Positions 1-25,020 of a DNA stretch of 26,019 bases are shown in pieces. The translations under genes were made by a program, and so were the position numbers. This DNA comes from a virus, in the IMG/VR virus record IMGVR_UViG_3300032462_000072, positions 1 to 26,019 of that record. One strand, 5' to 3'. Position 1 is the first letter of the stretch. Every line of letters begins with the position of its first letter. The notes beneath the pieces are model-generated. The model searched no databases. It was not told the origin of the DNA and saw only the letters and a program-made list of their open reading frames with translations.

Positions 1-399
1 ATTGGCCTCACCCATGTTCCACTCTTGGGACAGCATCTCTGCCGTATATGCCGCCGTTTCATATTGCGGTTCAGGGCCGACATCGTTGGACTTTGCGAGA
101 TCATCACGAAGCTGACGAAAGCCACCAAGCATATCATGAAACGCCAGCAAGTGCTGCTTGAGACTCGCCACCGACTTCTGCATCATCTGATGGAACTGCT
201 CCTCTTCTTCAGTGGCATCAGGATCAGAATGATGCTGGTTACCGGCCGCCATAACTGCCTTACAGATCAATTCGTTGGTGCAAAGACCCATGCCGAACTT
301 TGCCATACTTGTGCCGAGCAGGTCGATATGTCCAATGAGAATGTTTGCGGGCATAGGAGAGCGCAGAACGCTCACGATAGGAGGCTGATTTGTAGTCAT
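1..399 (-). CDS. Early protein, paralogue A (3' end outside window)
   Basis: The reading frame opens at ATG 399 and runs off the left edge, so 133 residues are visible and the C-terminus is missing. I do not recognise the family. It is clearly related to the proteins at 705-1226 and 2487-2912: residues 18-36 share the pattern A-N-I-x-I-G-H-x-D-x-L-G-x-x-x-A-K-F-G, and near residue 100-125 all three have L-R-x-D-x-A-K-x-N followed by Q-Y-x-T-x-x-Y-T-A-x-M. The middle is acidic (E-E-E-E) and predicted helical. The start was chosen because ATG 399 lies exactly where transcription should begin (-10 GAGAAT at 406-411) and because the N-terminus M-T-T-N aligns with the paralogues. No Shine-Dalgarno sequence precedes it. 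Composition is more GC-rich than the right part of the window. Function unknown. Confidence 0.8.
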   Translation of the reverse strand, partial: MTTNQPPIVSVLRSPMPANILIGHIDLLGTSMAKFGMGLCTNELICKAVMAAGNQHHSDPDATEEEEQFHQMMQKSVASLKQHLLAFHDMLGGFRQLRDDLAKSNDVGPEPQYETAAYTAEMLSQEWNMGEAN

Positions 400-434
400 G
401 TGTATATTCTCCCATGATCATGTCCCGCTGTCAA
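400..434 (-). promoter_or_regulatory. Leaderless early promoter for 1-399
   Basis: Read leftward: TTGACA (434-429), 17 bases beginning GCGGGACA, GAGAAT (411-406), 6 bases, then ATG 399. The predicted +1 falls on the A of ATG. The sequence from -35 to -10 is the same as at 1889-1917. Confidence 0.8.
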
Positions 435-505
435 GCGGTATGGACAAGATTTTATGGTGCGATTGCACAAGTCCGATAACATCGTATACTATCAACTTTC
501 TGCAT

Positions 506-556
506 AAAAAAGCCCCATCTAGCCTCTCTTTGTTTCAAGTGAGTGCTAGACAGGGC
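506..556 (-). terminator. Intrinsic terminator of the 1881-to-tRNA-Lys unit
   Basis: Leftward strand: a 12-bp stem (arms 556-545 and 523-512, two G-T pairs) is followed by a run of T at 511-506. It closes the unit that starts at 1881 and includes the tRNA. Confidence 0.85.
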
Positions 557-619
557 ATTTAAGCAGCACCGAATGACCATTGGCGCTGCCTAATGATCGT
601 TGCGAGCCGTGGAGTCATA

Positions 620-692
620 TGCCTTCTGTGGGACTCGAACCCACGACCAGAGAATTAAAAGTTCCCTGCTCTACCAGCTGAGCTAAGAAGGC
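620..692 (-). tRNA. tRNA-Lys(UUU)
   Basis: Leftward strand from 692: acceptor GCCTTCT pairs with AGAAGGC; D arm GCTC/GAGC; anticodon stem GGGAA/TTCTC with loop CTTTTAA, giving anticodon TTT (lysine); T arm GTGGG-TTCGAGT-CCCAC; discriminator A at 620. The length is 73 bases and CCA is not encoded. It lies 12 bases after the stop of the gene at 705-1226 on the same strand and before the terminator at 506-556, so it is probably co-transcribed with protein genes and cut out by RNases. Between the tRNA and the terminator a further 8-bp hairpin with arms in GCAGCGCC/GGTGCTGC can form. A UUU-reading tRNA suits the AAA-rich late genes of the AT-rich part of the window. Confidence 0.95.
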
Positions 693-704
693 CTTCTGTT
701 TTTG

Positions 705-1226
705 TCAGTCATCGACCTGATAATCATCGAATCCATTAGTTTCCAGCTCATCCTCGTCGCGATCATCCTCATTCGCCGGCTCGTTGGTGAACGGGAATGG
801 ATTATGCTGCGTGTTCTTCTTGGGCAGTGGGCCGTCAACGGCCGTACGGTCGAACCCGGCCATTCGCTCATCTTCCATCATTTGCGCAGCATACGCAGCT
901 GTCTTATACTGGCAGCCGTCATCGACTTCATTGGCCTTTGCCAAGTCCATGCGAAGCGTTCGCAGGCAGCCGGTGATTGCAACAAGGGCTTCCATGTCGG
1001 TTCGCAGCTGCGCCAGACCTGCCTTCATTTGTACGGCAATCTCGTCGTCTGCGCCAACATTAGCAATATGCAGCTGCAGAGACTCCACATAAGAATTGAA
1101 CAGCGGGGAGCGGCACATATTACTGCCGAATCTTGCAAGGCTGCCGCCGAGCATATCCAAGTGTCCGATGATAATGTTTGCGGGTTGGGAAGAGCATATG
1201 CTCACGATAGGGGATGAGGTGGTCAT
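705..1226 (-). CDS. Early protein, paralogue B, acidic C-terminal tail
   Basis: 173 residues. Unknown function; second member of the paralogous trio with 1-399 and 2487-2912. Residues 15-34 show the shared P-A-N-I-I-I-G-H-L-D-M-L-G-G-S motif, and L-R-M-D-L-A-K-A-N-E-V followed by Q-Y-K-T-A-A-Y-A-A-Q-M marks the second shared block. The tail (about residues 125-173) is longer than in the relatives and strongly acidic, ending D-Y-Q-V-D-D. Start ATG 1226 was preferred over an in-frame ATG at 1259 because M-T-T-S-S-P-I-V aligns with the paralogues. Unlike them it has no TTGACA promoter of its own: it follows the 39-residue membrane protein by 19 bases and is read as third gene of the unit starting at 1881. 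A weak GGA lies upstream of the start. Confidence 0.8.
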   Translation of the reverse strand: MTTSSPIVSICSSQPANIIIGHLDMLGGSLARFGSNMCRSPLFNSYVESLQLHIANVGADDEIAVQMKAGLAQLRTDMEALVAITGCLRTLRMDLAKANEVDDGCQYKTAAYAAQMMEDERMAGFDRTAVDGPLPKKNTQHNPFPFTNEPANEDDRDEDELETNGFDDYQVDD

Positions 1227-1245
1227 GTTTTTGTTCCAAAATGTT

Positions 1246-1365
1246 TCATTGAAATACATAAATGTACACAGCTATAATATAGAATATCGCGGCAATCGCC
1301 AATGATACTAATATTACTGTTGGTACAATCCATCCTGCTTTAGTTTTCATTTTCAATTCCTTCAT
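1246..1365 (-). CDS. Small single-span membrane protein (39 aa)
   Basis: M-K-E-L-K-M-K-T-K-A-G-W-I-V-P then one hydrophobic segment of about 24 residues (rich in I, A, V, Y) ending V-F-Q. The charge pattern (six lysines or other charges in the first ten residues) suggests an N-in membrane protein. Two starts are possible: ATG 1365, 5 bases after GAGAGGGGG, or in-frame ATG 1350, 7 bases after AAGGA; I give the longer one. It lies between the 140-residue protein at 1459-1881, which also ends in a membrane segment, and paralogue B. Small phage membrane peptides often act on host envelope functions, but nothing here shows a specific target. Confidence 0.65.
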   Translation of the reverse strand: MKELKMKTKAGWIVPTVILVSLAIAAIFYIIAVYIYVFQ

Positions 1366-1370
1366 AAAAT

Positions 1371-1449
1371 CCCCCTCTCATCACACCATCGCCCGTCGAT
1401 GATGGCAGTGAGAGGAGAGGGGGCGGTTCATCAGCCCCTAAACGGGGCT
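1371..1449 (-). promoter_or_regulatory. Hairpins masking a ribosome binding site
   Basis: In the leftward transcript the purine-rich GAGAGGGGG at 1379-1371, the ribosome binding region for ATG 1365, can pair over 9 bp with CCCCCTCTC at 1423-1415. A smaller hairpin AGCCCC-GTTTA-GGGGCT lies at 1449-1433, just after the stop of the upstream gene. Neither has a T-run, so they are not intrinsic terminators. The arrangement could couple translation of the 39-residue protein to passage of ribosomes, or to a temperature or ligand signal; this is inferred from pairing by eye only. Confidence 0.45.
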
Positions 1450-1458
1450 TCATGTGTA

Positions 1459-1881
1459 TTAGGCGAAGAATCTCATATAGGTGAGGACGACAAAACTGGT
1501 GAACACAACATCGGCAAGCATAACTGTTCCGACAACACAAACCGCGTGAGCCTTTGACTTAAACATAAAGCCTTGCATTGCCATAAATGCGTTATTGACC
1601 TTGAACTCAATCTTGTCGTTCATGTCGCAATTAGTCGTGCAGGCACTTTCTTGAGTCATTGCATCGAACCTAGACTGCATAAGATTCACAATTTGGTTTT
1701 TGTTGTACTCCATTTCACGGAACATGATTACATTGTTATCGGCGATCCGAGTATCAACATCATTGCTCAATGTAATCAAGAGACTGGTGGTAGAAACTTT
1801 TGGCTTTACCCAGCCGATCTTGGTCATGATTGATTTGCGTTTGCGAGAGGGGGATTTGACGGTATTTTGCTTTGTGGGCAT
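1459..1881 (-). CDS. Leaderless early protein with C-terminal membrane segment
   Basis: 140 residues, unrecognised. It opens M-P-T-K-Q-N-T-V-K-S-P-S-R-K-R-K, the clearest example of the N-terminal tag shared by this cluster. The centre is polar and predicted helical; the last ~28 residues (A-V-C-V-V-G-T-V-M-L-A ... L-T-Y-M-R-F-F-A) form a likely membrane span, so it may be tail-anchored. Start ATG 1881 sits 7 bases after the -10 hexamer; an upstream in-frame ATG at 1917 lies inside the -35 element and is rejected. First gene of a unit: 1881 protein, 39-residue membrane protein, paralogue B, tRNA-Lys, terminator at 506-556. Confidence 0.8.
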   Translation of the reverse strand: MPTKQNTVKSPSRKRKSIMTKIGWVKPKVSTTSLLITLSNDVDTRIADNNVIMFREMEYNKNQIVNLMQSRFDAMTQESACTTNCDMNDKIEFKVNNAFMAMQGFMFKSKAHAVCVVGTVMLADVVFTSFVVLTYMRFFA

Positions 1882-1917
1882 AGAGTATATTCTCCCATGA
1901 TCATGTCCCGCTGTCAA
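1882..1917 (-). promoter_or_regulatory. Leaderless early promoter for 1459-1881
   Basis: Leftward: TTGACA (1917-1912), 17-base spacer beginning GCGGGACA, GAGAAT (1894-1889), 7 bases, ATG 1881. Confidence 0.8.
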
Positions 1918-2013
1918 GCGGTATGGACAAGATTTATATTATGCAGATGCGAAAGTCCGATAACACGCCTACTATCAACTTTTGACAAAAAAAGAGGATT
2001 GAAAGAGGACGGA

Positions 2014-2214
2014 ATGAAAGCCCATTTAGGCATCGGTCGTGTTGTATACACTCAATGGAGTCTGAAGGCAATGTGGAGAGAAATCTGCGCTGGATATGAA
2101 ATAACAAAGAAAAGGCCTTATAGGGCAAAGAGGTGTGGGACTGTGGGGGAAAGTGTGGAGAAGTGTGGAGTAGTGATTGCAACGGCATCATGTACGAATA
2201 TTGAGAAAAGTTAG
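2014..2214 (+). CDS. Possible small basic protein (doubtful)
   Basis: A 66-residue frame from ATG 2014, preceded by AGAGGACGGA, which could serve as ribosome binding site. The product is basic (K-K-R-P-Y-R-A-K-R), with four cysteines, and is not recognised. It is the only substantial frame in the 569-base stretch 1918-2486, which otherwise holds a spacer and a terminator. Against it: no convincing rightward promoter is visible upstream, all neighbours are leftward, and the N-terminal tag typical of the cluster is absent. The stretch also has TGTGGAGAA at 2153-2161 and a near copy just after it, one change from the DnaA-box complement TGTGGATAA. Confidence 0.25.
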   Translation: MKAHLGIGRVVYTQWSLKAMWREICAGYEITKKRPYRAKRCGTVGESVEKCGVVIATASCTNIEKS

Positions 2215-2352
2215 TGTACATTTGCGGTGAATAATATAATAAAGCGTGTCAATTTGAGTTGAGCCAAAAAGGCCTAACTGCACCTGTCGCAAAATAATCC
2301 ACTTTCCGCTACAATCGAGCCACGCAATTTGGTCACGAAGTCTGTTTCGTTA

Positions 2353-2412
2353 CCAAAAAAAGAAAAGGCACTCGGCCTCCATATTCATCGTCATGGGAGA
2401 ACCGAGTGCCTT
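2353..2412 (-). terminator. Intrinsic terminator after 2487-2912
   Basis: Leftward strand: perfect 11-bp stem (AAGGCACTCGG at 2412-2402 with its complement at 2375-2365) followed by TTCTTTTTTT. Confidence 0.9.
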
Positions 2413-2486
2413 ACTCGCCGCTTATGACCATTAGCGCAAGTAGTGTGACATGGTCTGCGAAAGAGTGGGCTGTATTAGCCCTTTAA

Positions 2487-2912
2487 TCAATACTCGTCAT
2501 CGGCTCCTGCATCATCGTCATCGTAGCCGGTTGTTTCCTCTTTCTTTTCATTGTCGAAATCCATTTCCTCGATCAACATGAGTGCAGTATATTCCGGCGT
2601 GAGATACTGAGCGGTGTTGCCGATGCCGTTTTCTTTTGCCATGTCCTTTCGCAATTTGGCCAAGCACACGATCATGGACTGAAGTGCAGTCATGCTTTCT
2701 GCAAGTTCCAATAATGAAGCGTGTAATTCATCCTTGACTGGGCAGTTGGGCTTCTTCATTTCGAGGGCACAGGACGAAACGAAATTAGACAGCATTTGGT
2801 TGTTGTTCATGACGATATTGAACTTGGCCATGGCGGCGCCAACCATGTCGATATGGCCGACCATTACAGAGGCCGAATAGGGGGATTTCACGATAAGTTG
2901 AGTTTGGGTCAT
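2487..2912 (-). CDS. Early protein, paralogue C, acidic tail
   Basis: 141 residues, third member of the family with 1-399 and 705-1226. The N-terminus M-T-Q-T-Q-L-I-V-K-S-P combines the cluster tag with the family motif V-G-H-I-D-M-V-G-A-A-M-A-K-F (residues 18-31); the second shared block L-R-K-D-M-A-K-E-N-G-I plus Q-Y-L-T-P-E-Y-T-A-L-M lies near residues 90-115. The C-terminus is very acidic (D-D-D-D-A-G-A-D-D-E-Y). ATG 2912 is at the predicted transcription start; upstream in-frame ATG 3008 would lie beyond the promoter and is rejected. Monocistronic unit with terminator 2353-2412. Function unknown. Confidence 0.8.
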   Translation of the reverse strand: MTQTQLIVKSPYSASVMVGHIDMVGAAMAKFNIVMNNNQMLSNFVSSCALEMKKPNCPVKDELHASLLELAESMTALQSMIVCLAKLRKDMAKENGIGNTAQYLTPEYTALMLIEEMDFDNEKKEETTGYDDDDAGADDEY

Positions 2913-2947
2913 GTGTGTAGTTTCCCATGTCTTTGTCCCGCTGTCAA
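2913..2947 (-). promoter_or_regulatory. Leaderless early promoter for 2487-2912
   Basis: Leftward: TTGACA (2947-2942), 17-base spacer beginning GCGGGACA, GAAACT (2924-2919), 6 bases, ATG 2912. No Shine-Dalgarno sequence. Confidence 0.75.
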
Positions 2948-2993
2948 GCGTGAACGGCGGGAAAGTTGTTATGCGTTTGCATAAGAATCGTGC

Positions 2994-3022
2994 TTGACAA
3001 TGGGACATAGTTATGGTAGCAT
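2994..3022 (+). promoter_or_regulatory. Rightward promoter opposing the early genes (copy 1)
   Basis: TTGACA (2994-2999), 17 bases beginning ATGGGACA, TAGCAT (3017-3022). With the leftward promoter at 2913-2947 it forms an inverted pair: both carry GCTTGACA-N-N-GGGACA pointing outwards. No start codon follows; the transcript would enter the terminator region at 3053-3094 from the wrong side and run antisense to 3259-3498. Confidence 0.6.
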
Positions 3023-3052
3023 ACCCCGAATCACTATCAACATTTTGGAAAT

Positions 3053-3094
3053 AAAAAAACCCATTCTGGCGCCTAGGCTCGCTGCCAGAATGGG
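3053..3094 (-). terminator. Intrinsic terminator after 3259-3498
   Basis: Leftward strand: 11-bp stem (arms 3094-3084 and 3070-3060, CCCATTCTGGC with GCCAGAATGGG) followed by TTTTTTT (3059-3053). Between it and the stop codon at 3259 (3095-3258) I see no convincing gene. Confidence 0.9.
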
Positions 3095-3258
3095 AGATCG
3101 AAGGGGGCTCACTAGCCTAATCGAAGCAAATACAGACCTCTAGTCGATTTGCTCTTGGTCAGCTGTATGGAGCCCTACCTTCTATCGGTGACATGGACAA
3201 TTTTCGTCTCGGCATACGGTGCCCGAAAAGACTCGTTCAGGCAAGTAGTCGAGGGGGT

Positions 3259-3498
3259 TCATACTGCGACCCCTTCCATCGACTTTGCAACGGCCGCAAG
3301 TTTCTTCTTTGCGTCCTCATGTCGGCAGGCCATAACGCATCCGTCTGCGGCCAGCATATCGCGCCGATTGAGTAAGTTCTCAATTCGACTCTCGTTTGCA
3401 GTTACTAGAAAAGTGTGTCGTTTCACTTCATAATCGTGAGTCTTTTGGACTCGTGCAATTTCATTCTTGATTACAACCGAAAGGTCAATGTTTTCCAT
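3259..3498 (-). CDS. Small early protein, helical
   Basis: 79 residues starting M-E-N-I-D-L-S-V-V-I-K; charged and predicted mostly helical, with heptad-like spacing (E-S-R-I-E-N-L-L-N-R-R) in the middle. Not recognised. Start ATG 3498 is preceded by GGAG at 8 bases, a normal ribosome binding site, unlike the leaderless first genes; an upstream in-frame ATG (3531) is less well placed. It is second gene after 3570-3836; the 71-base gap contains a G/C hairpin (CCCTCCCC with GGGGAGGG) without T-run, which may pair with or stabilise the leader. It lacks the T-V-x-S-P tag, as expected for a downstream gene. Confidence 0.65.
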   Translation of the reverse strand: MENIDLSVVIKNEIARVQKTHDYEVKRHTFLVTANESRIENLLNRRDMLAADGCVMACRHEDAKKKLAAVAKSMEGVAV

Positions 3499-3569
3499 TT
3501 GTGAATCTCCAAGTAAGTCCCTCCCCCCCATTGGAGAGGGGAGGGAATTGGTTTCAGAACTGTCCGAAC

Positions 3570-3836
3570 TTACTTCACATTCGCAATTGTGCGCAATGCG
3601 ACGACACTTGCACGGAGTGCAACGATGATTGCATCGTGAGACTTCGATCCTGCAATCGTCTTTGCAATTCCGGCCTCATACCGTGCAATGCGTTTCAGGG
3701 AACGGGACTTCTTGCGTTCCGCCCGAACGACTTGTCGTTCCGCAGAAATAATTGCGGCATCAATGGGTGATGGTCGAGTCTTGCGGGTTGTTGGTGCGGG
3801 ATTGGATGGATTCACGGTAGGTGCGGTACTGGTCAT
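3570..3836 (-). CDS. Leaderless early protein, basic, Ala/Arg-rich helix
   Basis: 88 residues. N-terminus M-T-S-T-A-P-T-V-N-P-S-N, a variant of the cluster tag, then a Pro/Thr/Arg-rich linker and a long basic helix (A-E-R-Q-V-V-R-A-E-R-K-K-S-R-S-L-K-R). Such composition would suit nucleic-acid binding, but no known domain is visible. ATG 3836 coincides with the predicted transcription start, and no ribosome binding site is present; the in-frame ATG at 3875 lies upstream of the promoter. First gene of a two-gene unit with 3259-3498. Confidence 0.75.
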   Translation of the reverse strand: MTSTAPTVNPSNPAPTTRKTRPSPIDAAIISAERQVVRAERKKSRSLKRIARYEAGIAKTIAGSKSHDAIIVALRASVVALRTIANVK

Positions 3837-3871
3837 GTGTGTAGTTTCCCATGTCTGTGTCCCATTGTCAA
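3837..3871 (-). promoter_or_regulatory. Leaderless early promoter for 3570-3836
   Basis: Leftward: TTGACA (3871-3866), 17-base spacer beginning ATGGGACA, GAAACT (3848-3843), 6 bases, ATG 3836. Confidence 0.75.
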
Positions 3872-3921
3872 GCACATTGGATGATATTTGTTTTCATGTT
3901 GCGAACGCATAAAAATCGTGC

Positions 3922-3950
3922 TTGACAACGGGACACAGTTACTCTACCAT
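3922..3950 (+). promoter_or_regulatory. Rightward promoter opposing the early genes (copy 2)
   Basis: TTGACA (3922-3927), 17 bases beginning ACGGGACACAG, TACCAT (3945-3950). It is preceded by AAAAATCGTGC, as in the other two rightward copies (AGAATCGTGC). Transcription would begin around 3957, at the inverted repeat 3956-4041. Confidence 0.6.
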
Positions 3951-3955
3951 GTGCG

Positions 3956-4072
3956 AAAGTTGATAGTATACCTATACCTGTGGAGGGCGGGGAGGAGTCC
4001 GATAACCAATCTCCGAAACTATACCTATACTATCAACTTTTGCTAATAATATACCTATACTATCAACTTTTC
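3956..4072. repeat. Inverted and direct iteron copies
   Basis: AAAGTTGATAGTATA at 3956-3970 faces TATACCTATACTATCAACTTT at 4020-4040, so a rightward RNA from 3957 could fold into a ~15-bp stem; a second direct copy follows at 4050-4071. AGTCCGATAAC lies between the arms (3996-4006). Confidence 0.8.
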
Positions 4073-4077
4073 ATGCC

Positions 4078-4124
4078 AAAGACGCCTGACACAAAGCATC
4101 CCGTAGGCGCTGGGGTCAGGCGTT
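4078..4124 (-). terminator. Probable terminator after 4221-4529
   Basis: Leftward strand: 10-bp stem (AACGCCTGAC at 4124-4115 with GTCAGGCGTC at 4090-4081) followed only by TTTGG, so weaker than the others in the cluster. Confidence 0.55.
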
Positions 4125-4220
4125 CTGGCGCAGGTTGAACTTTGCATCGTCCTTCCTTATGTTTGTAAAATCTCTATGCGGTTTGCAGTCCCGCAAGAGA
4201 ACTTTTCCCACCCCATTAGG

Positions 4221-4529
4221 TCATCCTTCGTTGTCCCCCAATGAGTCGGTGAGAGTGTTCGTCATGTCGGTCAAAAACTCCGACAATTCTTCTTGAGTGT
4301 CGAATCCATCATTCATTTCCTCTTGACACTCGACCAAGAATTGATCGAGGTCGGATGACTCATCATTGAACTCTTGATGGATCAAATGCACTTGCATTAC
4401 ATTCTGTATGGATGCAACGAATCCTTCTTGATCTCTGGACGAGTCTCTGGTCATGTAGGAATTGATCATTCCCACTAGACGGTGAATAATGGATTGAGGT
4501 GATGTCACGGTGGAGTCGGGGTTGGTCAT
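4221..4529 (-). CDS. Leaderless early acidic protein
   Basis: 102 residues, strongly acidic, unrecognised. It opens M-T-N-P-D-S-T-V-T-S-P-Q, the cluster tag, then a helical body; the C-terminal half is rich in D and E (S-D-L-D-Q-F-L-V-E-C-Q-E-E-M) and resembles a DNA-mimic-like acidic helix only in composition. ATG 4529 is the predicted +1 of the strongest promoter in the set (TAAAAT). Monocistronic. Small acidic early phage proteins often bind host enzymes; no specific target can be read here. Confidence 0.75.
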   Translation of the reverse strand: MTNPDSTVTSPQSIIHRLVGMINSYMTRDSSRDQEGFVASIQNVMQVHLIHQEFNDESSDLDQFLVECQEEMNDGFDTQEELSEFLTDMTNTLTDSLGDNEG

Positions 4530-4564
4530 GACTGCATTTTAGGGGGTCTGTGTCCCGTTGTCAA
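4530..4564 (-). promoter_or_regulatory. Leaderless early promoter for 4221-4529
   Basis: Leftward: TTGACA (4564-4559), 17-base spacer beginning ACGGGACACAGACC, TAAAAT (4541-4536), 6 bases, ATG 4529. Confidence 0.85.
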
Positions 4565-4610
4565 GTACATTGGGTACATATTATTTTATGCAAGTGCAAA
4601 AGAATCGTGC

Positions 4611-4639
4611 TTGACAACGGGACACACCTATGGTAAAAT
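4611..4639 (+). promoter_or_regulatory. Rightward promoter opposing the early genes (copy 3)
   Basis: TTGACA (4611-4616), 17 bases beginning ACGGGACACAC, TAAAAT (4634-4639): the best consensus of the three rightward copies. It is preceded by AGAATCGTGC. The transcript would be antisense to the 3' end of 4729-5052; no coding start is placed at +1. Confidence 0.65.
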
Positions 4640-4679
4640 ACGGTAAGGCGGATAAAGGCCTTTACTATCAACTTTTGCA

Positions 4680-4709
4680 TAAAAAACCCACAGTTTGCAG
4701 TCCTGTGAG
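4680..4709 (-). terminator. Intrinsic terminator after 4729-5052
   Basis: Leftward strand: 7-bp stem (CTCACAG at 4709-4703, CTGTGGG at 4693-4687) followed by TTTTTT (4686-4681). Confidence 0.75.
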
Positions 4710-4728
4710 GTATGAAGAGATTTGGTAA

Positions 4729-5052
4729 TCACAAGGGAGGAGGGTTATTCGCAGGTATGAACTTCTTCTTGAAGTCGTGAATGACCCAAGAATCGTATTC
4801 CTTCCGATTGGTGATAAATGTCCATAAAGAGTAATCATCATTTGATCCTCCTGCAAGATGATACTCGTAAACATCACTAGTATCATCATCGGGAACTTCT
4901 GCATCCAGTTTGGTCTTGTATTCCTCGATCAGTCGCAAAATGTGGTTAAACCGCATGATGTGTTCCCGATTGAGTGGAGTAGTAGTTTCCCAAATCTCGG
5001 ATGCAGGAACTTCTCGCATCTTTAGGGGTGAGGGGGTAGGAGTGTCTGTCAT
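4729..5052 (-). CDS. Early protein, translationally coupled second gene
   Basis: 107 residues from ATG 5052: M-T-D-T-P-T-P-S-P-L-K, a reduced form of the cluster tag, then a helical stretch with N-R-E-H-I-M-R-F-N-H-I and an acidic loop D-D-D-T-S-D, ending N-P-P-P-L. Not recognised. The start overlaps the stop of 5049-5525 in the form ATGA, so it is probably translated by re-initiation; only a weak GGA is present upstream. In-frame ATGs at 5067 and 5073 are possible but would overlap further and lack the tag. Confidence 0.7.
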   Translation of the reverse strand: MTDTPTPSPLKMREVPASEIWETTTPLNREHIMRFNHILRLIEEYKTKLDAEVPDDDTSDVYEYHLAGGSNDDYSLWTFITNRKEYDSWVIHDFKKKFIPANNPPPL

Positions 5053-5525
5053 GACTTCAACATCCATTCGCACGACTTGACAACATTCTCGTCATTGATT
5101 GGGAAAGTTGATGCGATCAGTCGCAATCCTTGCAAATACTCGTCATTGTCGAGAATCTTGCAAGTGTCCCATCGTTTCAGAAAACCATTGAACTGTGCAA
5201 AAAACATCTGTTGCGTGTGCAATCTGACTTGATCTGCGGTCGGAAGGACGAAATCTTCCGAGACAATCGGGAACTTGGAGATGTGTTGCATCCCCCCCTG
5301 ATTGTACATATCAAACCTGACGATCTTCTTGCGTGTCGGATCGTCCAACTTTTGTGCAAGTGCGATGACTGGATCAGTTGAAATGGTGATCCATTGTCCT
5401 CGACGACTCCATCGCATCAAAATTGGTGTACCCTTTGAAAAGGGGATCAAGACGGGGGATGGAGGTCGAACCTTTGGTTTGCGGGTGCGAGAGGGGGAGG
5501 TCACGGTAGTTTGAGTCTCTGTCAT
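5049..5525 (-). CDS. Leaderless early protein with TVTSPSR tag
   Basis: 158 residues. N-terminus M-T-E-T-Q-T-T-V-T-S-P-S-R-T-R-K, basic and proline-rich to about residue 25, then a mixed alpha/beta body (G-T-P-I-L-M-R-W-S-R-R-G-Q-W-I-T-I; F-N-G-F-L-K-R-W). No family recognised. ATG 5525 lies 7 bases after TAAAAT; the ATG at 5534 overlaps the -10 and that at 5567 lies upstream of the -35, so neither can be used from this promoter. Its stop overlaps the start of 4729-5052, forming a two-gene unit ended at 4680-4709. Confidence 0.75.
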   Translation of the reverse strand: MTETQTTVTSPSRTRKPKVRPPSPVLIPFSKGTPILMRWSRRGQWITISTDPVIALAQKLDDPTRKKIVRFDMYNQGGMQHISKFPIVSEDFVLPTADQVRLHTQQMFFAQFNGFLKRWDTCKILDNDEYLQGLRLIASTFPINDENVVKSCEWMLKS

Positions 5526-5561
5526 GTGGGTCATTTTAGGTACTCCATGTCCCATTGTCAA
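5526..5561 (-). promoter_or_regulatory. Leaderless early promoter for 5049-5525
   Basis: Leftward: TTGACA (5561-5556), 17-base spacer beginning ATGGGACA, TAAAAT (5538-5533), 7 bases, ATG 5525. Confidence 0.85.
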
Positions 5562-5583
5562 GTGCATTGGATGATATTATTTG

Positions 5584-5622
5584 AGTCCGATAACGCAAGT
5601 CCGATAACGCAAGTCCGATAAC
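5584..5622. repeat. Three tandem AGTCCGATAAC repeats, 14-bp period
   Basis: AGTCCGATAAC at 5584-5594, 5598-5608 and 5612-5622, separated by GCA. Single copies occur in three other promoter regions of the cluster. They lie upstream of the promoter at 5526-5561 and directly beside the nested inverted repeat. Confidence 0.9.
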
Positions 5623-5627
5623 CCGAT

Positions 5628-5709
5628 GTTGATAGTATAGGGGTATATCATGATCCCGAAACAGATTTCGGGATCATCGCTGAGCGCCCGATATACCTAT
5701 ACTATCAAC
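5628..5709. repeat. Nested inverted repeat (possible cruciform)
   Basis: Outer arms GTTGATAGTATAGGGGTATATC (5628-5649, split here: 22 bases with two extra G) and its near complement at 5690-5709; inner perfect 12-bp arms ATGATCCCGAAA (5650-5661) and TTTCGGGATCAT (5666-5677) with a 4-base loop. No T-run follows the inner stem in either direction, so it is not a usual terminator. Confidence 0.85.
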
Positions 5710-5715
5710 TTTTGA

Positions 5716-5773
5716 CAAAAAAAACGGACTCTCGCACCACAGTATTACTACTGCGTTCCGTGTGCGAGAGTCC
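5716..5773 (-). terminator. Intrinsic terminator after 5790-6134
   Basis: Leftward strand: perfect 12-bp stem (GGACTCTCGCAC at 5773-5762 with its complement at 5737-5726) followed by G and T8. Confidence 0.9.
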
Positions 5774-5789
5774 TGCGGTGGGAAGTTTG

Positions 5790-6134
5790 TTACCCCCAAA
5801 TTGACTTGAGGATGTCGTTCCGCATCCGTGGTTTGACCACCTGCAAACAATGCACCATGTGTCGTTCTTTGTTGCAGTAGTACCCGACACCGTCCGTTCC
5901 CCATGAGTGACCTGACCCAAGGTACTGACTCATGAGTCTGCGGACATCCCACAGGACATCGTCGAAATTGACATCAGAGACCTCCATGACTTGAACAGAC
6001 ACGACATCACGAGTAATTGCGACCGATCCACGAAGGAGTTTGATCTCATTCACGAATTCGTCCATGAGTGCGAGACGAGATCGGTTGGTTGGTGGTGCGA
6101 GAGGGGGAGAGACAGTAGTGGGTTGAATCTTCAT
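5790..6134 (-). CDS. Leaderless early protein
   Basis: 114 residues. N-terminus M-K-I-Q-P-T-T-V-S-P-P-L-A-P, a divergent form of the cluster tag, then N-R-S-R and a mixed body with V-S-V-Q-V-M-E-V-S-D and a Gly/Trp/Tyr segment (L-G-S-G-H-S-W-G-T-D-G-V-G-Y-Y-C). Family unknown. ATG 6134 is 7 bases after TACACT; the in-frame ATG 6170 overlaps the -35. Monocistronic, with terminator 5716-5773. Confidence 0.75.
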   Translation of the reverse strand: MKIQPTTVSPPLAPPTNRSRLALMDEFVNEIKLLRGSVAITRDVVSVQVMEVSDVNFDDVLWDVRRLMSQYLGSGHSWGTDGVGYYCNKERHMVHCLQVVKPRMRNDILKSIWG

Positions 6135-6170
6135 ACTTGGGAGTGTAGGGGGTCTGTGTCCCGTTGTCAA
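6135..6170 (-). promoter_or_regulatory. Leaderless early promoter for 5790-6134
   Basis: Leftward: TTGACA (6170-6165), 17-base spacer beginning ACGGGACACAGACC, TACACT (6147-6142), 7 bases, ATG 6134. DnaA boxes lie about 30-60 bp upstream. Confidence 0.8.
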
Positions 6171-6201
6171 GTACCTTGACGAAGAATTAATATAGGTATA
6201 T

Positions 6202-6232
6202 TGTGGATAACCTGTGGATAACCTGTGGATAA
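6202..6232 (-). promoter_or_regulatory. Three consensus DnaA boxes, 11-bp phased
   Basis: TGTGGATAA at 6202-6210, 6213-6221 and 6224-6232, i.e. TTATCCACA leftward, matching the bacterial DnaA-box consensus exactly three times with one-helical-turn spacing. An AT-rich block AAGAATTAATATAGG lies beside them at 6183-6197, and iterons at 6246-6292. Confidence 0.8.
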
Positions 6233-6294
6233 CCGATATACCTATACTATCAACTTTTCATTCGGCATCGCTACCCTATACTATCAACTTTTGA

Positions 6295-6348
6295 CAAAAA
6301 AAGACTCCCCGCACGGTGATTGCATATCGACCTCGTGCGCGGGGAGTC
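6295..6348 (-). terminator. Intrinsic terminator after 6365-6493
   Basis: Leftward strand: a 12-13-bp GC-rich stem (GACTCCCCGC... at 6348-6334 with ...GCGGGGAGTC at 6315-6303) followed by T7. Confidence 0.9.
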
Positions 6349-6364
6349 CATGAAGTGATTCGGG

Positions 6365-6493
6365 TTAAACCATCTCCCCCCTGCATTGGAGTCTGTGGAG
6401 AGTCTCCAGTTGTCTCGTCAACACACGGATGCGAATCTCGATCCGCATCTTTGATGCGTTCAAGACGACGAGTTTGTTCTCGATGTCCATCAT
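6365..6493 (-). CDS. Small early helical protein, coupled to 6490-6645
   Basis: 42 residues: M-M-D-I-E-N-K-L-V-V-L-N-A-S-K-M-R-I-E-I-R-I-R-V-L-T and on to G-E-M-V, a single amphipathic, coiled-coil-like helix. The start ATG 6493 overlaps the upstream stop (ATGA) and is preceded 3 bases away by AAGGGGGG, a usable ribosome binding site; a second ATG follows directly at 6490. No known family. Confidence 0.6.
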   Translation of the reverse strand: MMDIENKLVVLNASKMRIEIRIRVLTRQLETLHRLQCRGEMV

Positions 6494-6645
6494 GCACCCC
6501 CCTTCTTCTTTGCGGTCAGACCCATCTTCTTCAGTTGCGGAATGATCCGCAGGATGAAGTACTTGCGTTCCTTGTCGAACTGGTTCATCGATTCCAGTCC
6601 ACGGGTGCGGGAGGGGGATTTCACGGTGGGGGTTTGAGACTTCAT
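6490..6645 (-). CDS. Leaderless early peptide with TVKSPSR tag (51 aa)
   Basis: 51 residues: the tag M-K-S-Q-T-P-T-V-K-S-P-S-R-T-R takes up almost a third of the protein, followed by a basic helix (F-D-K-E-R-K-Y-F-I-L-R-I-I-P-Q-L) and a C-terminal K-K-K-G-G-A. ATG 6645 is 7 bases after TACAAT. It heads a two-gene unit with 6365-6493. Function unknown; because it is so short it is a good reference for the tag. Confidence 0.7.
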   Translation of the reverse strand: MKSQTPTVKSPSRTRGLESMNQFDKERKYFILRIIPQLKKMGLTAKKKGGA

Positions 6646-6681
6646 ACTTGGGATTGTAGGGGGTCTGTGTCCCGTTGTCAA
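6646..6681 (-). promoter_or_regulatory. Leaderless early promoter for 6490-6645
   Basis: Leftward: TTGACA (6681-6676), 17-base spacer beginning ACGGGACACAGACC, TACAAT (6658-6653), 7 bases, ATG 6645. Confidence 0.85.
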
Positions 6682-6717
6682 GTGCATGGTGCAAGAATTA
6701 ATATAGGGGTATATCGG

Positions 6718-6737
6718 TTATCCACAAGTTATCCACA
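6718..6737 (+). promoter_or_regulatory. Two consensus DnaA boxes, 11-bp phased
   Basis: TTATCCACA at 6718-6726 and 6729-6737, in the opposite orientation to the triplet at 6202-6232 and with the same 11-bp period. They are flanked on the left by AAGAATTAATATAGG (6693-6707), the same AT-rich block as beside the first cluster. Confidence 0.8.
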
Positions 6738-6815
6738 ATATACCCTACCCCCTTAACTATCAACATTTGAGACAGCAACACACACCCATATGCACCACAT
6801 ATAGACACATATAAG

Positions 6816-6897
6816 GGACGGATGTAGGGGTTCTCTACATCTGTCCTTGAACAGTGCTGGGGGGTTTTGGGTACCCATGCCGCCTAGACGCTAGCAC
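6816..6897. other. Hairpin-rich non-coding stretch
   Basis: The stretch 6738-7050 has no convincing gene. It holds a 12-bp stem (GGACGGATGTAG 6816-6827, CTACATCTGTCC 6835-6846, one G-T) with a 7-base loop, and a second possible fold closed by GTGCT (6854-6858) and AGCAC (6893-6897) around GGGTACCC. Neither is followed by a T-run. It could be part of an origin, a packaging signal or an RNA; nothing decides between these. Confidence 0.5.
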
Positions 6898-6911
6898 AGA
6901 AGTACCTACCC

Positions 6912-7022
6912 TTCAGCATAACTAATTTTTTCGCAAAAAAACCAAATATCCATATCTAAAAATTTTTTTAAATATTTTTCCCCGTATTTTGCAAATTTCC
7001 CGCAATTCCCCGCAATTCCCCT
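6912..7022. other. AT-rich tract with short direct repeats
   Basis: Long A and T runs from 6926 to 6980, then CCCGCAATT written twice in tandem (about 6998-7017) preceded by GCAAATTTCC. It lies between the DnaA boxes and the divergent junction at 7258-7263 and would melt easily. No gene seen. Confidence 0.6.
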
Positions 7023-7050
7023 TTATGCTCTCTGTTTCCCTTACTACTTC

Positions 7051-7224
7051 TTAGAACCCCGCCACGAAAAGACCCCACCAATTCATCACCCATCGAATCT
7101 GGGCGTAAAGCAGGAAGATCATCATACCGAGGGCCTGCAAACACACAAATGTGAATGCCCCAAACATGATCCACTCCAGAGGTTTGGACATTATAAAGTT
7201 GTCGATAAAGTCTTTCTTTTGCAT
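7051..7224 (-). CDS. Leaderless small membrane protein (57 aa)
   Basis: M-Q-K-K-D-F-I-D-N-F-I-M-S-K-P-L-E-W then two hydrophobic segments (about residues 19-40 and 45-57: M-F-G-A-F-T-F-V-C-L-Q-A-L-G-M-M and W-V-M-N-W-W-G-L-F). Not recognised; it may span the inner membrane once or twice. The start lies 6 bases after TAGAAT, and there is no Shine-Dalgarno sequence, so the mRNA should be leaderless like the rest of the early array. It is the first leftward gene after the divergent junction with the late module. It lacks the T-V-x-S-P tag. Confidence 0.65.
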   Translation of the reverse strand: MQKKDFIDNFIMSKPLEWIMFGAFTFVCLQALGMMIFLLYAQIRWVMNWWGLFVAGF

Positions 7225-7258
7225 AGGAGTATTCTATATGAATAATAAGGAATGTCAA
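7225..7258 (-). promoter_or_regulatory. Leaderless early promoter for 7051-7224
   Basis: Leftward: TTGACA (7258-7253), 16 bases, TAGAAT (7236-7231), 6 bases, ATG 7224. The spacer is AT-rich and lacks the CGGGACA block of the other early promoters, so it may escape their shared control. It lies back to back with the late promoter at 7263. Confidence 0.75.
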
Positions 7259-7262
7259 GTAT

Positions 7263-7270
7263 TATAAATA
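7263..7270 (+). promoter_or_regulatory. T4-type late promoter, leaderless start for 7277
   Basis: TATAAATA followed after 6 bases (TATTGT) by ATG 7277. No ribosome binding site. In T4 transcription starts about 5-7 bases after this octamer, so the start codon is at or next to +1. Confidence 0.8.
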
Positions 7271-7276
7271 TATTGT

Positions 7277-8803
7277 ATGAAAACCTTTAAGCAATTTTTA
7301 CTTGAGTTGTATGATCATTTGGGTGAGGAATTACCATGGGATTTGACTGATGAAGTTCCAGAAGAAGATAGAAGCGACCTGACAACTCTGAGAGGATTGC
7401 ACCACGAACCCAAGGATTCAGGTCTAGTGTCTACCAGACTACCATATAGACGAGGTGAAAAAGAATCGTATGCTCATGATTTGCATGGTGTGAACAGACT
7501 CACTGTGGGACTTGATTTAGAGGGAAACGTAAATTATGTTTCAAAAAAACTTCAACAATTTTTGCGTCCTGCCTCTTCTACTACACTCCCGAAACATTCT
7601 TGGCAAGCGACAAGTGGTAAATTTGTGAAAGGAGAAAGCCCCATGGACACAGCTAAGAGATCGCACGAATTTATTGTTGGAAATCAAGAACATCATATAG
7701 CAAGATATGAAAAAAGTTTTGGTGAACTGGCAGAACGAAGCAAGTCATGGTATACAGGAGCAGGCGCAATAGGTAATAGATTTGCTAAAACATATGATGT
7801 ACATCCTCATGTTGTTGCTGCCGTAATAGCAAGTCAGTCACCAGGAACAGACTGGAATAGAAATGTAAGCAATGCCGAAAGACTTATTCATACTTACACA
7901 ACTCAGCAAAATACTCAAACCAATCAAAAAATGGTAACTGCTGCCGATTACGTATTTCACGATCATCGTAAAAACAAGAAAAATCAATATATCGATAAAG
8001 AAGGCAATGTCACAACAAATCCAAAGGAGTATGTTATACACACAGAGCACCAAGAATTAAAATCCGCTGTTCTTGGGACTGGGGGAAAACATCCAAGATT
8101 GAAGGACATGAAAAATTCTAGAGAAAAGGCTGCCTGGATTAGACTGTATGATACTTCCCATCACGATTCACGACATAGAGAAATAACACCAGAGGGAGAT
8201 TTTGGAGATTTTGTGCAAACTAAAGCTGGACAGAATGCAAAAATTGGTTGGGGGTCTTTTAATATGATTGCAAATGGAATAGATGCCCTTGAATCTGTAA
8301 ATCATGACGGTAGTCTTAACATGAATAAATTATCAAAATCTTTAGGGAAGGCGCACAAAGTAAGAAGTTTTTATAACAATCAAGTTAACCCAAATGCAAA
8401 CGACGTAACTGCGGACACTCACATGGGGGCAGCATCTACATTAGACACATCTTTGAGTCAAAAATCCCCTGAAATAAATGACATGTTTACTGCTCCCCCG
8501 AATCGTCGTAGTGGTCAGGGAGGACTATATGCTCATGTTGCTACTGCAACTCGTGAGTTGGCAAAAAGAAGAGGATATCGCCCATCATCAGCACAAAGTC
8601 AAGTATGGGACGCAGAAAAAGCACTTAAAGATGCATCTTCTGATGAAACCAACCAAACAAACAGGGACAATCTAATACGACACGGACTAGGACAAATTAG
8701 TGCCGCCGAACTTAGAAGAAAATTTGATAAAAACAATCCTGTGGCACAACCTGCGTGGAGCAAAACTAACACCAGCGCAAATAATATCAGTACATTCTTA
8801 TGA
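7277..8803 (+). CDS. Late protein with capsid-targeting peptide; HhH-GPD-like region
   Basis: 508 residues. The first ten, M-K-T-F-K-Q-F-L-L-E, resemble the T4 internal-protein targeting peptide, and L-L-E fits the prohead protease signature L/I-x-E, so the protein is probably packaged into the prohead and trimmed. In the body, about residues 176-198 (V-V-A-A-V-I-A-S-Q-S-P-G-T-D-W) and 345-385 (K-V-R-S-F-Y-N-N ... D-V-T-A-D-T-H-M-G-A-A) resemble phage proteins with a helix-hairpin-helix glycosylase-like fold, in which a loop of the type v-D-t-H carries the catalytic aspartate. That relationship is my recollection of motifs, not a search result. If correct, this would be a DNA-repair or base-modifying enzyme carried in the virion. 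First gene of the rightward late module. Confidence 0.8.
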   Translation: MKTFKQFLLELYDHLGEELPWDLTDEVPEEDRSDLTTLRGLHHEPKDSGLVSTRLPYRRGEKESYAHDLHGVNRLTVGLDLEGNVNYVSKKLQQFLRPASSTTLPKHSWQATSGKFVKGESPMDTAKRSHEFIVGNQEHHIARYEKSFGELAERSKSWYTGAGAIGNRFAKTYDVHPHVVAAVIASQSPGTDWNRNVSNAERLIHTYTTQQNTQTNQKMVTAADYVFHDHRKNKKNQYIDKEGNVTTNPKEYVIHTEHQELKSAVLGTGGKHPRLKDMKNSREKAAWIRLYDTSHHDSRHREITPEGDFGDFVQTKAGQNAKIGWGSFNMIANGIDALESVNHDGSLNMNKLSKSLGKAHKVRSFYNNQVNPNANDVTADTHMGAASTLDTSLSQKSPEINDMFTAPPNRRSGQGGLYAHVATATRELAKRRGYRPSSAQSQVWDAEKALKDASSDETNQTNRDNLIRHGLGQISAAELRRKFDKNNPVAQPAWSKTNTSANNISTFL

Positions 8804-22659: not shown

Positions 22660-25020
22660 TCAAGTTAAGTCAACCAATTCACATTTATCCCCAGAGCAGG
22701 CAAATGTCTGAGCTCCAACTGTACAGTCCTCTTTTTCATATACCATTAACTCTTTAATCCACTCTACAGAGGTCGGTAGCGTCGATGCCAACGCACTACA
22801 CTCCTCTACAGAACACTCTTGGTAAGGAGCTTGGCGATAGGAGTGATCTGAGTGTGGCAAGAACGAAATACCACTTATTTCATCGAAATGCTTATATACC
22901 CAAGCACCTACTTCCATCCATTCGGACTCTTTTACCGTAACGGTAATGGATGGTTTGTGTTCGCACCAAAATCGTTGATAAGTCAACCAAATAGTAAGAT
23001 GCTCGATTGCAGTAAGGTCATTTCTGGTGAAAGAATTAGGCGACACTATAGGAAATGAGAAAACCATAGTAGAATCTGGTTTATTCACACAGGGTTCATA
23101 TGGGAACTTCATATCCATCATCATTTGACATAATGGGTCTTTTCTGTCTGCTCTTACTGTTCTGATATAGTATGCACTATGCCTAGGATGAATACCAGAT
23201 GCACAATCAGCCAACTGTGAGGCTGTGCCTGAAGGTTTTATACAAGTTATAGCTGCAGACTGATTAATACCAAGTTTCTTCGCCCACTCTTTGTTTACAT
23301 CAATAGTAGTTTGTTTGAATTCGGTTAAAGTATTCTCTAGTTCTTTGTTATTAGTTCGCATAAATTCATTATCAAAAATCCCAGTCAAAGAAACCCCCAA
23401 TAGTGCTTCTTCTTGACAGTTCTTTTTAAATTCAGATGAAAGATAAGGAAAATGCAAAAGTGATGCCTGCCATGTCCCGAGAATAGTAGCAAGTCTGATT
23501 TTTCTTTTTAGCGATTCAGGAGTATCTGTATCACGAACAACAACTTCTGTTAGATTGCAAAACTCTCTGTCTCGTAGAATAATTTCTGAATTATGGACTA
23601 AAATCCCATTAGCGAAAAAATTCTGATTGACTGTTTGAATATCGTATGTGTCTCTTCTATCGTCAACTTTGACGATTTCTATTCCATAAAGCACATACAA
23701 ACACGATTGTTCCGTTATTAGTAAGATGTTATCTGTTTTTAATAAGTCTTTCGCCTCAATATATCCCCTAGTTTCTGTCCAAACTCTATGATCGGGGGTC
23801 AAGTCAATCGTTATAACTTCCGATGTTTCTGTTACAAATTGCAACTGTATTATTTCAGCATTTGGTCTTGTCATACCACCAGAAATAATCTCTTGATATT
23901 CTAGTTTTTCTGTTTCTAGATTATAAGTTAGAATAAGATAATCATTTATATTCTTGACAATATCAGATATTGATACTTTTCCCAAATTTGTCTGTATTAA
24001 AGTATTACCATCTAAACAACATGGGTTCGTGCCAAATTCATAATTAGCATCTCTTCGATCACCTAGTTTCGCAACTGTTTTCTTACACGCATCTCTGTTA
24101 AATATTCCTCGTTCTCCACATTTTGATTTATAAAGAGAAACCCATTCATCCATAAACACACCGATATCTGGTTTTTCTTTATATGCTACTGAATTGTTCG
24201 CAAGAGCTCTCTGTGGATTTTCTACCCACCATTGTCCTGTTTTAGCATCACGCAGTTTTTCATCTGTGAGATTTGAGAGGGATATTAGTGCACTTCTTCT
24301 AACTCCTCCTGTTACGACAATTTCACCAGTTTTACATACGATATCGTGGCACTCGATACTCGTAAGTTTCCTACCAGCCGCTCTTTTGAAGGTTGCAACG
24401 GTGAACTTGAACAAATCATCGAGGGGTTGTGGGCCAGATGCTCTACCACCGAAAGTTTTAAGTCTTGCTCCCGCAGGTCGTATCTTTTTAAGGTTCCATT
24501 TCGGTATTTGACCAGCAATAAGTAACGAGATGAGTTCTTTGAAAGCTCTAGCCCATCCAGCCTTATTGTCTTCCACCATAATCTCAGTTTCTGTATTAGA
24601 GAAGCTTTCAGTGATTGTAGGTAATTTTTCAACATATTGTCTCTCCACACTAAACCCCACGCCAGTACCGCACATGAGGGTGTATAATATTTCGTCAAAC
24701 GCTCTAACTCTACCAACTGTAATATAACTACAATTATATCCAGCCACATTGTCCCTCTCCAAAGCTTCTCCAGCAGTCATTAACGCTCGCATAGAAGGTA
24801 GTATTTCTAAATTAAGAATTGCACTTTCTAATTCATTTCTCAATTGTTTCGAAAGAATAAAGTCGTGTTTGTCTTTTAGATGTTTCTCAAAGAAATCAAA
24901 ATACCGTGCCACAGTCTCTTCCCAAGTTTCTCTACATTTTTCAGATTCTAACCAACGAGAGTATCGAGAAATATGAATAAATTGCTGATAAAGCGACGGT
25001 AGTATAATTTCTTTTTTCAT
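22660..25020 (-). CDS. nrdJ: Class II (B12-dependent) ribonucleotide reductase with intein
   Basis: 786 residues, of which 143 are an intein, leaving a 643-residue enzyme. It resembles monomeric adenosylcobalamin-dependent ribonucleoside triphosphate reductases: G-Y-N-C-S-Y-I (C97) and F-C-N-L-T-E-V (C488) provide the redox cysteine pair, N-P-C (C334) followed after splicing by S-E-I provides the thiyl-radical cysteine, G-G-V-R-R-S-A-L marks the substrate region, P-S-G-T-A-S a phosphate-binding loop, and C-S-G-D-K-C near the C-terminus the reducing thiols. It makes deoxyribonucleotides for phage replication and, unlike class I enzymes, needs no oxygen but needs host cobalamin. It follows thyX by 22 bases. 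Confidence 0.92.
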   Translation of the reverse strand: MKKEIILPSLYQQFIHISRYSRWLESEKCRETWEETVARYFDFFEKHLKDKHDFILSKQLRNELESAILNLEILPSMRALMTAGEALERDNVAGYNCSYITVGRVRAFDEILYTLMCGTGVGFSVERQYVEKLPTITESFSNTETEIMVEDNKAGWARAFKELISLLIAGQIPKWNLKKIRPAGARLKTFGGRASGPQPLDDLFKFTVATFKRAAGRKLTSIECHDIVCKTGEIVVTGGVRRSALISLSNLTDEKLRDAKTGQWWVENPQRALANNSVAYKEKPDIGVFMDEWVSLYKSKCGERGIFNRDACKKTVAKLGDRRDANYEFGTNPCCLDGNTLIQTNLGKVSISDIVKNINDYLILTYNLETEKLEYQEIISGGMTRPNAEIIQLQFVTETSEVITIDLTPDHRVWTETRGYIEAKDLLKTDNILLITEQSCLYVLYGIEIVKVDDRRDTYDIQTVNQNFFANGILVHNSEIILRDREFCNLTEVVVRDTDTPESLKRKIRLATILGTWQASLLHFPYLSSEFKKNCQEEALLGVSLTGIFDNEFMRTNNKELENTLTEFKQTTIDVNKEWAKKLGINQSAAITCIKPSGTASQLADCASGIHPRHSAYYIRTVRADRKDPLCQMMMDMKFPYEPCVNKPDSTMVFSFPIVSPNSFTRNDLTAIEHLTIWLTYQRFWCEHKPSITVTVKESEWMEVGAWVYKHFDEISGISFLPHSDHSYRQAPYQECSVEECSALASTLPTSVEWIKELMVYEKEDCTVGAQTFACSGDKCELVDLT
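23590..24018 (-). mobile_element. Mini-intein inside NrdJ
   Basis: Residues 335-477 of the precursor. Block A begins C-L-D-G-N-T-L-I-Q-T; block B has L-T-P-D-H-R-V-W-T; block F/G is Y-D-I-Q-T-V-N-Q-N-F-F and ends L-V-H-N, followed by extein S. All residues for protein splicing (Cys+1, block B His, terminal Asn, Ser+1) are visible. At 143 residues it has only the splicing domain and no LAGLIDADG or HNH homing endonuclease, so it cannot move by itself. The insertion lies between C334 and S of N-P-C-S-E-I, the active site. Confidence 0.93.

Follow-up and report, generated by a model that had tools for sequence, protein, structure and literature searches.

A T4-type phage genome fragment carries two clusters of exact DnaA boxes, each just upstream of an early promoter, near the place where its early genes give way to late ones. 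We tentatively favour, at somewhat less than even confidence, the reading that host DnaA binds upstream of these promoters and modulates them. The fragment, called the window in what follows, is the whole 26,019-base IMG/VR record IMGVR_UViG_3300032462_000072 and is linear. Textbook accounts have T4-type phages depend on factors of their own and on R-loops or recombination.

The window holds five exact copies of TTATCCACA, arranged as three and two with none elsewhere in its 26,019 bases, and its 9-mers match the DnaA consensus TTATNCACA above chance. The first-pass annotation had described two opposed clusters with an 11-bp period, each adjoining the same AT-rich block, and had judged five copies to be more than chance would give. 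The exact positions (Table 1) bear out the arrangement, the block AAGAATTAATATAGG does recur at both clusters, and in 100 dinucleotide shuffles of the window TTATCCACA appeared 0.35 times on average and three times at most, with five copies in none. To that description we add inverted arms at each cluster, an early promoter downstream of each, and a second, equally improbable 9-mer nearby, TTATCGGAC. An exact search for the boxes combined with the ATATACC arm gave no matches.

Table 1. Features of the window around the DnaA-box clusters, the early promoters and the strand switch
Feature	Position	Strand	Details
DnaA-box cluster 1 (predicted)	6202..6232	-	three TTATCCACA: 6202-6210, 6213-6221, 6224-6232; 11-bp period
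DnaA-box cluster 2 (predicted)	6718..6737	+	two TTATCCACA: 6718-6726, 6729-6737; 11-bp period
AT block AAGAATTAATATAGG adjoining cluster 1	6182..6196	+	
AT block AAGAATTAATATAGG adjoining cluster 2	6693..6707	+	
Inverted arms TATAGGTATAT / ATATACCTATA around cluster 1	6191..6246	.	ends approximate
Inverted arms GGGTATAT / ATATACCC around cluster 2	6707..6745	.	ends approximate
Early promoter P6170	6142..6170	-	sigma70-type TTGACA-17-TACACT, conserved spacer ACGGGACACAG
Early promoter P6681	6653..6681	-	sigma70-type TTGACA-17-TACAAT, spacer ACGGGACACAG as in P6170
Ninth early promoter P7258	7258-7231	-	TTGACA-16-TAGAAT; 16-bp spacer; ATG 6 nt past -10
Early ORF, 114 aa	5790..6134	-	ATG 7 nt past P6170 -10 (leaderless); no family match
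Early ORF, 50 aa	6490..6642	-	ATG 7 nt past P6681 -10 (leaderless); no PHROGs match
Second small ORF after P6681, 42 aa	6365..6493	-	no Pfam match
Early ORF behind P7258, 57 aa	7051..7224	-	transcribed toward AT-rich stretch
Three TTATCGGAC in slot of early promoter P5561	5585..5621	-	14-bp period
TTATCGGAC in slot of early promoter P434	471..479	-	
TTATCGGAC in slot of early promoter P1917	1955..1963	-	
Candidate unwinding element: 60-mer of lowest stability within 1-7260	6918..6977	.	includes 19-column L155 match
Late promoter TATAAATA at early/late strand switch	7263..7270	+	upstream of the first late gene read rightward (7277, MKTFKQFL...)

The assignment of the record to the T4-type phages, already made in the first-pass annotation, is well supported by sequence features, and the hallmark capsid genes, portal and terminase lie outside the 26 kb. 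Small leftward genes fill positions 1 to 7.2 kb and rightward genes behind late promoters follow from 7277. T4-type late promoters of the form TATAAATA occur 10 times against 2.64 expected; those at 7263, 8816, 10275, 13657 and 17516 start 12-41 bp ahead of ORFs, with distances of 12-15 bp at the ORFs beginning at 7277, 8828 and 13672. The exonuclease of the window is shared with T4-type cyanophages, and in the alignment of the A2 protein (window, L128 and L129) the L128 member, used as query, matches Pelagibacter phage Mosig (Kyanoviridae) at 30.8%. The class II ribonucleotide reductase (22660-25020) has its nearest counterparts in Roseobacter, Rhizobium and other phages, and a weak, below-cutoff match to intein splicing lies inside it. 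A tRNA gene in the early block (620-692) is called Lys by ARAGORN, yet resembles phage tRNA-Thr by blastn. No near match to the window was found among 50,697 phage records.

Eight leftward early promoters (434-, 1917-, 2947-, 3871-, 4564-, 5561-, 6170- and 6681-) have in common TTGACA, a ACGGGACACAG-type spacer and an ATG that follows the -10 element by 6-7 nt. With so short a distance their messages would be leaderless, and together they would make up a predicted leaderless early regulon. When the leaderless pattern was held strictly to a gap of 5 bases, it matched none of six records, L155 included; this is no argument against leaderless genes, because the gap is 6-7. The early proteins tested gave no family match, and Pfam returned weak, below-cutoff matches alone. 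An N-terminal stretch like M-x5-TVxSPSR is common to otherwise unrelated early proteins, carried by the ORFs starting at 1881, 2912, 3836, 4529, 5525, 6134 and 6642 on the minus strand of the window and by the one at 938 of L155; it may be a peptide tag, or else reflect conservation of the DNA around the start. Three rightward promoter copies (2994+, 3922+ and 4611+) stand back to back with leftward ones, have no ATG near, and are possibly small RNA promoters. A further repeat, AAAGTTGATAG, is present in nine copies (491-, 1974-, 3956+, 4032-, 4062-, 4667-, 5704-, 6249- and 6283-), several of them separating a terminator-like hairpin from the next promoter slot. Inverted repeats of greater length, with GTTGATAGTATA arms, span 5624-5710, around a hairpin with a 12-bp stem, and 3953-4043, around a TTATCGGAC site.

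Both box clusters fall within the slot upstream of such a promoter. Counted with the first base of the -35 element as -35, the box centres of cluster 1 lie at -71, -82 and -93 from P6170, with the boxes oriented like the promoter, and those of cluster 2 at -76 and -87 from P6681, with the boxes oriented opposite to it. The second 9-mer takes the same place elsewhere, centred at -76 (P434), -77 (P1917) and -63, -77 and -91 (P5561); its copies in the window number six, where 0.16 would be expected, five of them in promoter slots and one at 3997. Across the eight promoters with the ACGGGACACAG-type spacer the slot thus contains TTATCGGAC in three, TTATCCACA in two and neither in three. This swap of motifs, the flipped orientation and the use of two separate promoters would suit a promoter module and regulation. 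Placed at random in the window, a 31-nt segment would fall wholly in promoter-upstream zones at 254 of 25,989 positions and a 20-nt segment at 353 of 26,000; within early intergenic DNA the corresponding figures are 238 of 2,648 and 326 of 2,769.

Relatives were sought through the exonuclease (27 loci) and the A2 protein (19 loci, two of them repeating the L128 and L129 contigs), and L155 alone among those examined extends to the early/late border together with its early side. There, TTATCCACA at 998 and TTATCGGAC at 1010 form one array with a 12-bp period upstream of a visible leftward early promoter (TTGACA-17-TACGAT, ATG 6 nt on), and a second array, with TTATCCACA at 33 and 45 and TTATCGGAC at 57, stands beside a -35 element cut by the contig end. 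The layout expected of DnaA-regulated promoters, with conserved boxes at the promoter, is seen at both clusters of the window and alike in L155, at one whole promoter and one cut; across window and L155 the nearest box begins 22-37 bp upstream of the -35 element. In the 123-kb relative G001 there is no exact TTATCCACA, so that conservation in relatives, which the first-pass annotation had proposed to check, held for L155 and failed for G001. The latter carries four TTATCGGAC, three between divergent genes and a fourth that precedes a leaderless-type promoter by 72 bp; the three lie at L157 1257-1440, flanked by an AAA+ ATPase-like gene read leftward and an 850-aa, VWA-like gene read rightward, both genes having been named by eye.

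Other candidate relatives were set aside. L154 was dropped as an independent witness, matching L155 only from about 245 on, with an earlier part that looks by eye like other DNA, and searches of viral contigs with the early protein at 5790-6134 or a 508-aa ORF led to no confirmed relative. The sole match to a search with the promoter spacer (L126) was taken, from its stretch by eye, for a coincidence in a coding region. The pattern TTTTTTCGNCAAAAAAA proved too loose as a relative finder, with at least 120 matches, and two of its loci with boxes within 800 bp (L271 and L265) had stretches that looked unrelated by eye. Boxes in L162, L166, L168 and L153 were solitary and were dropped, and L132, with six boxes at a 12-bp period, differs from the window in layout.

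How common such arrays are depends on the collection. Any exact TTATCCACA box was present in seven of 20 records searched, and tandem boxes in one of 18 records and in none of the 13 T4-type isolates within that set, to which L155 does not belong. Among isolates triple arrays are rare, with 17 of 50,697 phage records by blastn, a method of limited sensitivity for such short repeats. In IMG/VR the triple-box pattern is common, with at least 120 loci, and for viruses generally tandem boxes are no rarity. The 120 loci listed reduce to 80 distinct ones, of which 14 lack full flanks, leaving 66 arrays; sigma70-type promoters lie near seven of these unrelated arrays against a mean of 6.0 in shuffles. 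The idea that viral box arrays are generally linked to sigma70 promoters was accordingly rejected, which makes the promoter link a property of the lineage of the window. Motifs resembling sigma54 sites (of the TGGCAC-N5-TTGCA type) were seen near four of the 66 arrays against 0.05 in shuffles; loci with such motifs beside arrays are L132 (1260-1370, about four in a row by eye), L009, L044, L080 and L093.

The reading that host DnaA acts at the early promoters draws on the five exact boxes where 0.35 were expected, on the position of both clusters upstream of early promoters, set against the random-placement figures above, and on L155, whose boxes at 33, 45 and 998 likewise precede early -35 elements. 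It also draws on what has been described of DnaA, a known activator and repressor that in its host-encoded form stimulates transcription of phage lambda. In published accounts of lambda pR and ori-lambda, as would be the case here, host DnaA acts on phage transcription and DnaA-box-like sites lie near phage promoters; those accounts place two DnaA-box-like sequences downstream of pO and not, as in the window, in an upstream tandem array. Lambda further differs in being temperate, in having its own O and P initiators and in not being T4-type. The clusters would then be sites for the host initiator built into the upstream slot of two promoters at the early/late border. DnaA, already in the cell at infection, would bind them and contact or block RNA polymerase, and early transcription would be set by the level or nucleotide state of DnaA. 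The copies of TTATCGGAC in the slot of other early promoters would be the sites of a second factor, and possibly the same promoter would start replication too, as oriE or ori-lambda would. Counting against this reading are the box centres (-61 to -93), which do not keep to one helical register, the single relative that reaches the border, with its second array beside a cut -35, the lack of sigma70 enrichment near the 66 IMG/VR arrays, and the absence of an exact box from G001.

The occurrence of both 9-mers in one 12-bp-period array in L155 also weighs against DnaA, in that one non-DnaA protein could read both. The boxes might on that account be sites of a phage-encoded protein, or of another host protein, that reads a TTATC core, the match to DnaA being incidental; TTATCCACA and TTATCGGAC both contain TTATC and occupy the same slot. 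Their pairing is no bacterial signature either, having been rejected as a mark of bacterial origins on 16 scattered matches in a collection of 84,980 genomes. We consider this reading improbable, as all eight copies of the box in the window and L155 are exact to the DnaA consensus, without the variation expected of a chance resemblance. A broader proposal, which we regard as speculative and rather unlikely, is a two-letter upstream code in which host DnaA would recognise TTATCCACA, and another factor, perhaps DnaA-like, would recognise TTATCGGAC. The leaderless early genes would be run through this code, the phage would sense the replication state of its host before choosing an early programme, and the border promoters would double as a transcription-coupled origin.

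The first-pass annotation had read the boxes as a possible DnaA-dependent origin. Its recognition of strong-consensus boxes unusual for a T4-type phage stands, with five exact TTATCCACA here and no tandem boxes in the 13 isolates, but the origin itself now seems unlikely, if still to be taken seriously. DnaA on the clusters, in a DnaA-dependent or oriE-like origin, would go with opening of the AT-rich stretch at 6918-6977, and early transcription would help to prime replication or load the replisome. Consistent with this, the boxes lie at the strand switch (about 7.2 kb), the 60-mer of lowest stability in the early region is some 180 bp from them, and P7258 transcribes toward it. L155 retains the border, the boxes and a 19-column match, 'AATTTTTTCG(G)CAAAAAAA', which in each lies about 190 bp away from its boxes (E 0.019, in a small comparison), and its own least stable 60-mer of positions 1-1300 (1240-1299) is also in the border gap. 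T4 oriE has likewise been described as dependent on an early promoter, with 12-nt direct repeats and a position near a strand switch; the window has such an early promoter with short, evenly spaced repeats at a strand switch, a likeness of layout only. The repeats located at oriE, unlike DnaA boxes, are 24 bp and lie inside gene 5; no DnaA boxes are found there, and DnaA is absent from the text of the review that describes it. Against an origin, too, the two clusters sit in promoter slots in opposite orientations, and elsewhere the slot is filled by the other 9-mer. In L155 the weak stretch is less pronounced (1.188, with a mean of 1.414, compared with 1.064 against 1.377 in the window) and is not at the matching place. 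The GC-skew check suggested for 6-7 kb gave no sharp turn there. With tandem boxes in none of the 13 T4-type isolates, T4-type replication does not need them.

Titration, also raised in the first-pass annotation, in which replicated phage genomes would soak up DnaA and halt host initiation, is a distinctly poor candidate. The boxes are consensus ones in clusters, and clustered consensus boxes are likewise described for datA and oriC-type bacterial loci, extra datA-type copies of which titrate DnaA. Those of the window, however, are in a phage genome and linked to promoters, a fixed place at early promoters is needless for titration, and there are five boxes only in the 26-kb fragment. A DNA-entry stop signal is the least probable of all. 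To our knowledge T4-type phages inject in one step, and the boxes here are in individual promoters, not in a terminal repeat. Repeats, palindromes and DnaA boxes have been proposed to mark the end of the first-step DNA of T5, whose stop signal, unlike the window clusters, is terminal and serves a two-step injection. The likeness lies in phage DNA with DnaA boxes, palindromic arms and hairpins, and Klebsiella and Salmonella phages of 102-114 kb, presumed from their size to be T5-like, were among the matches to the box search.

The open-access literature surveyed yielded no description of DnaA boxes for any T4-type phage. Effects of DnaA on lambda transcription are already known, and our analysis suggests that what is new here is predicted DnaA sites at T4-type early promoters. 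The clusters are short, and binding and reporter assays on them would not require the phage itself. If host DnaA does act at these promoters, the repeats at oriE-like sites, whose role is unexplained, would have a parallel open to experiment, and the start of infection by a T4-type phage would be tied to the replication state of its host.
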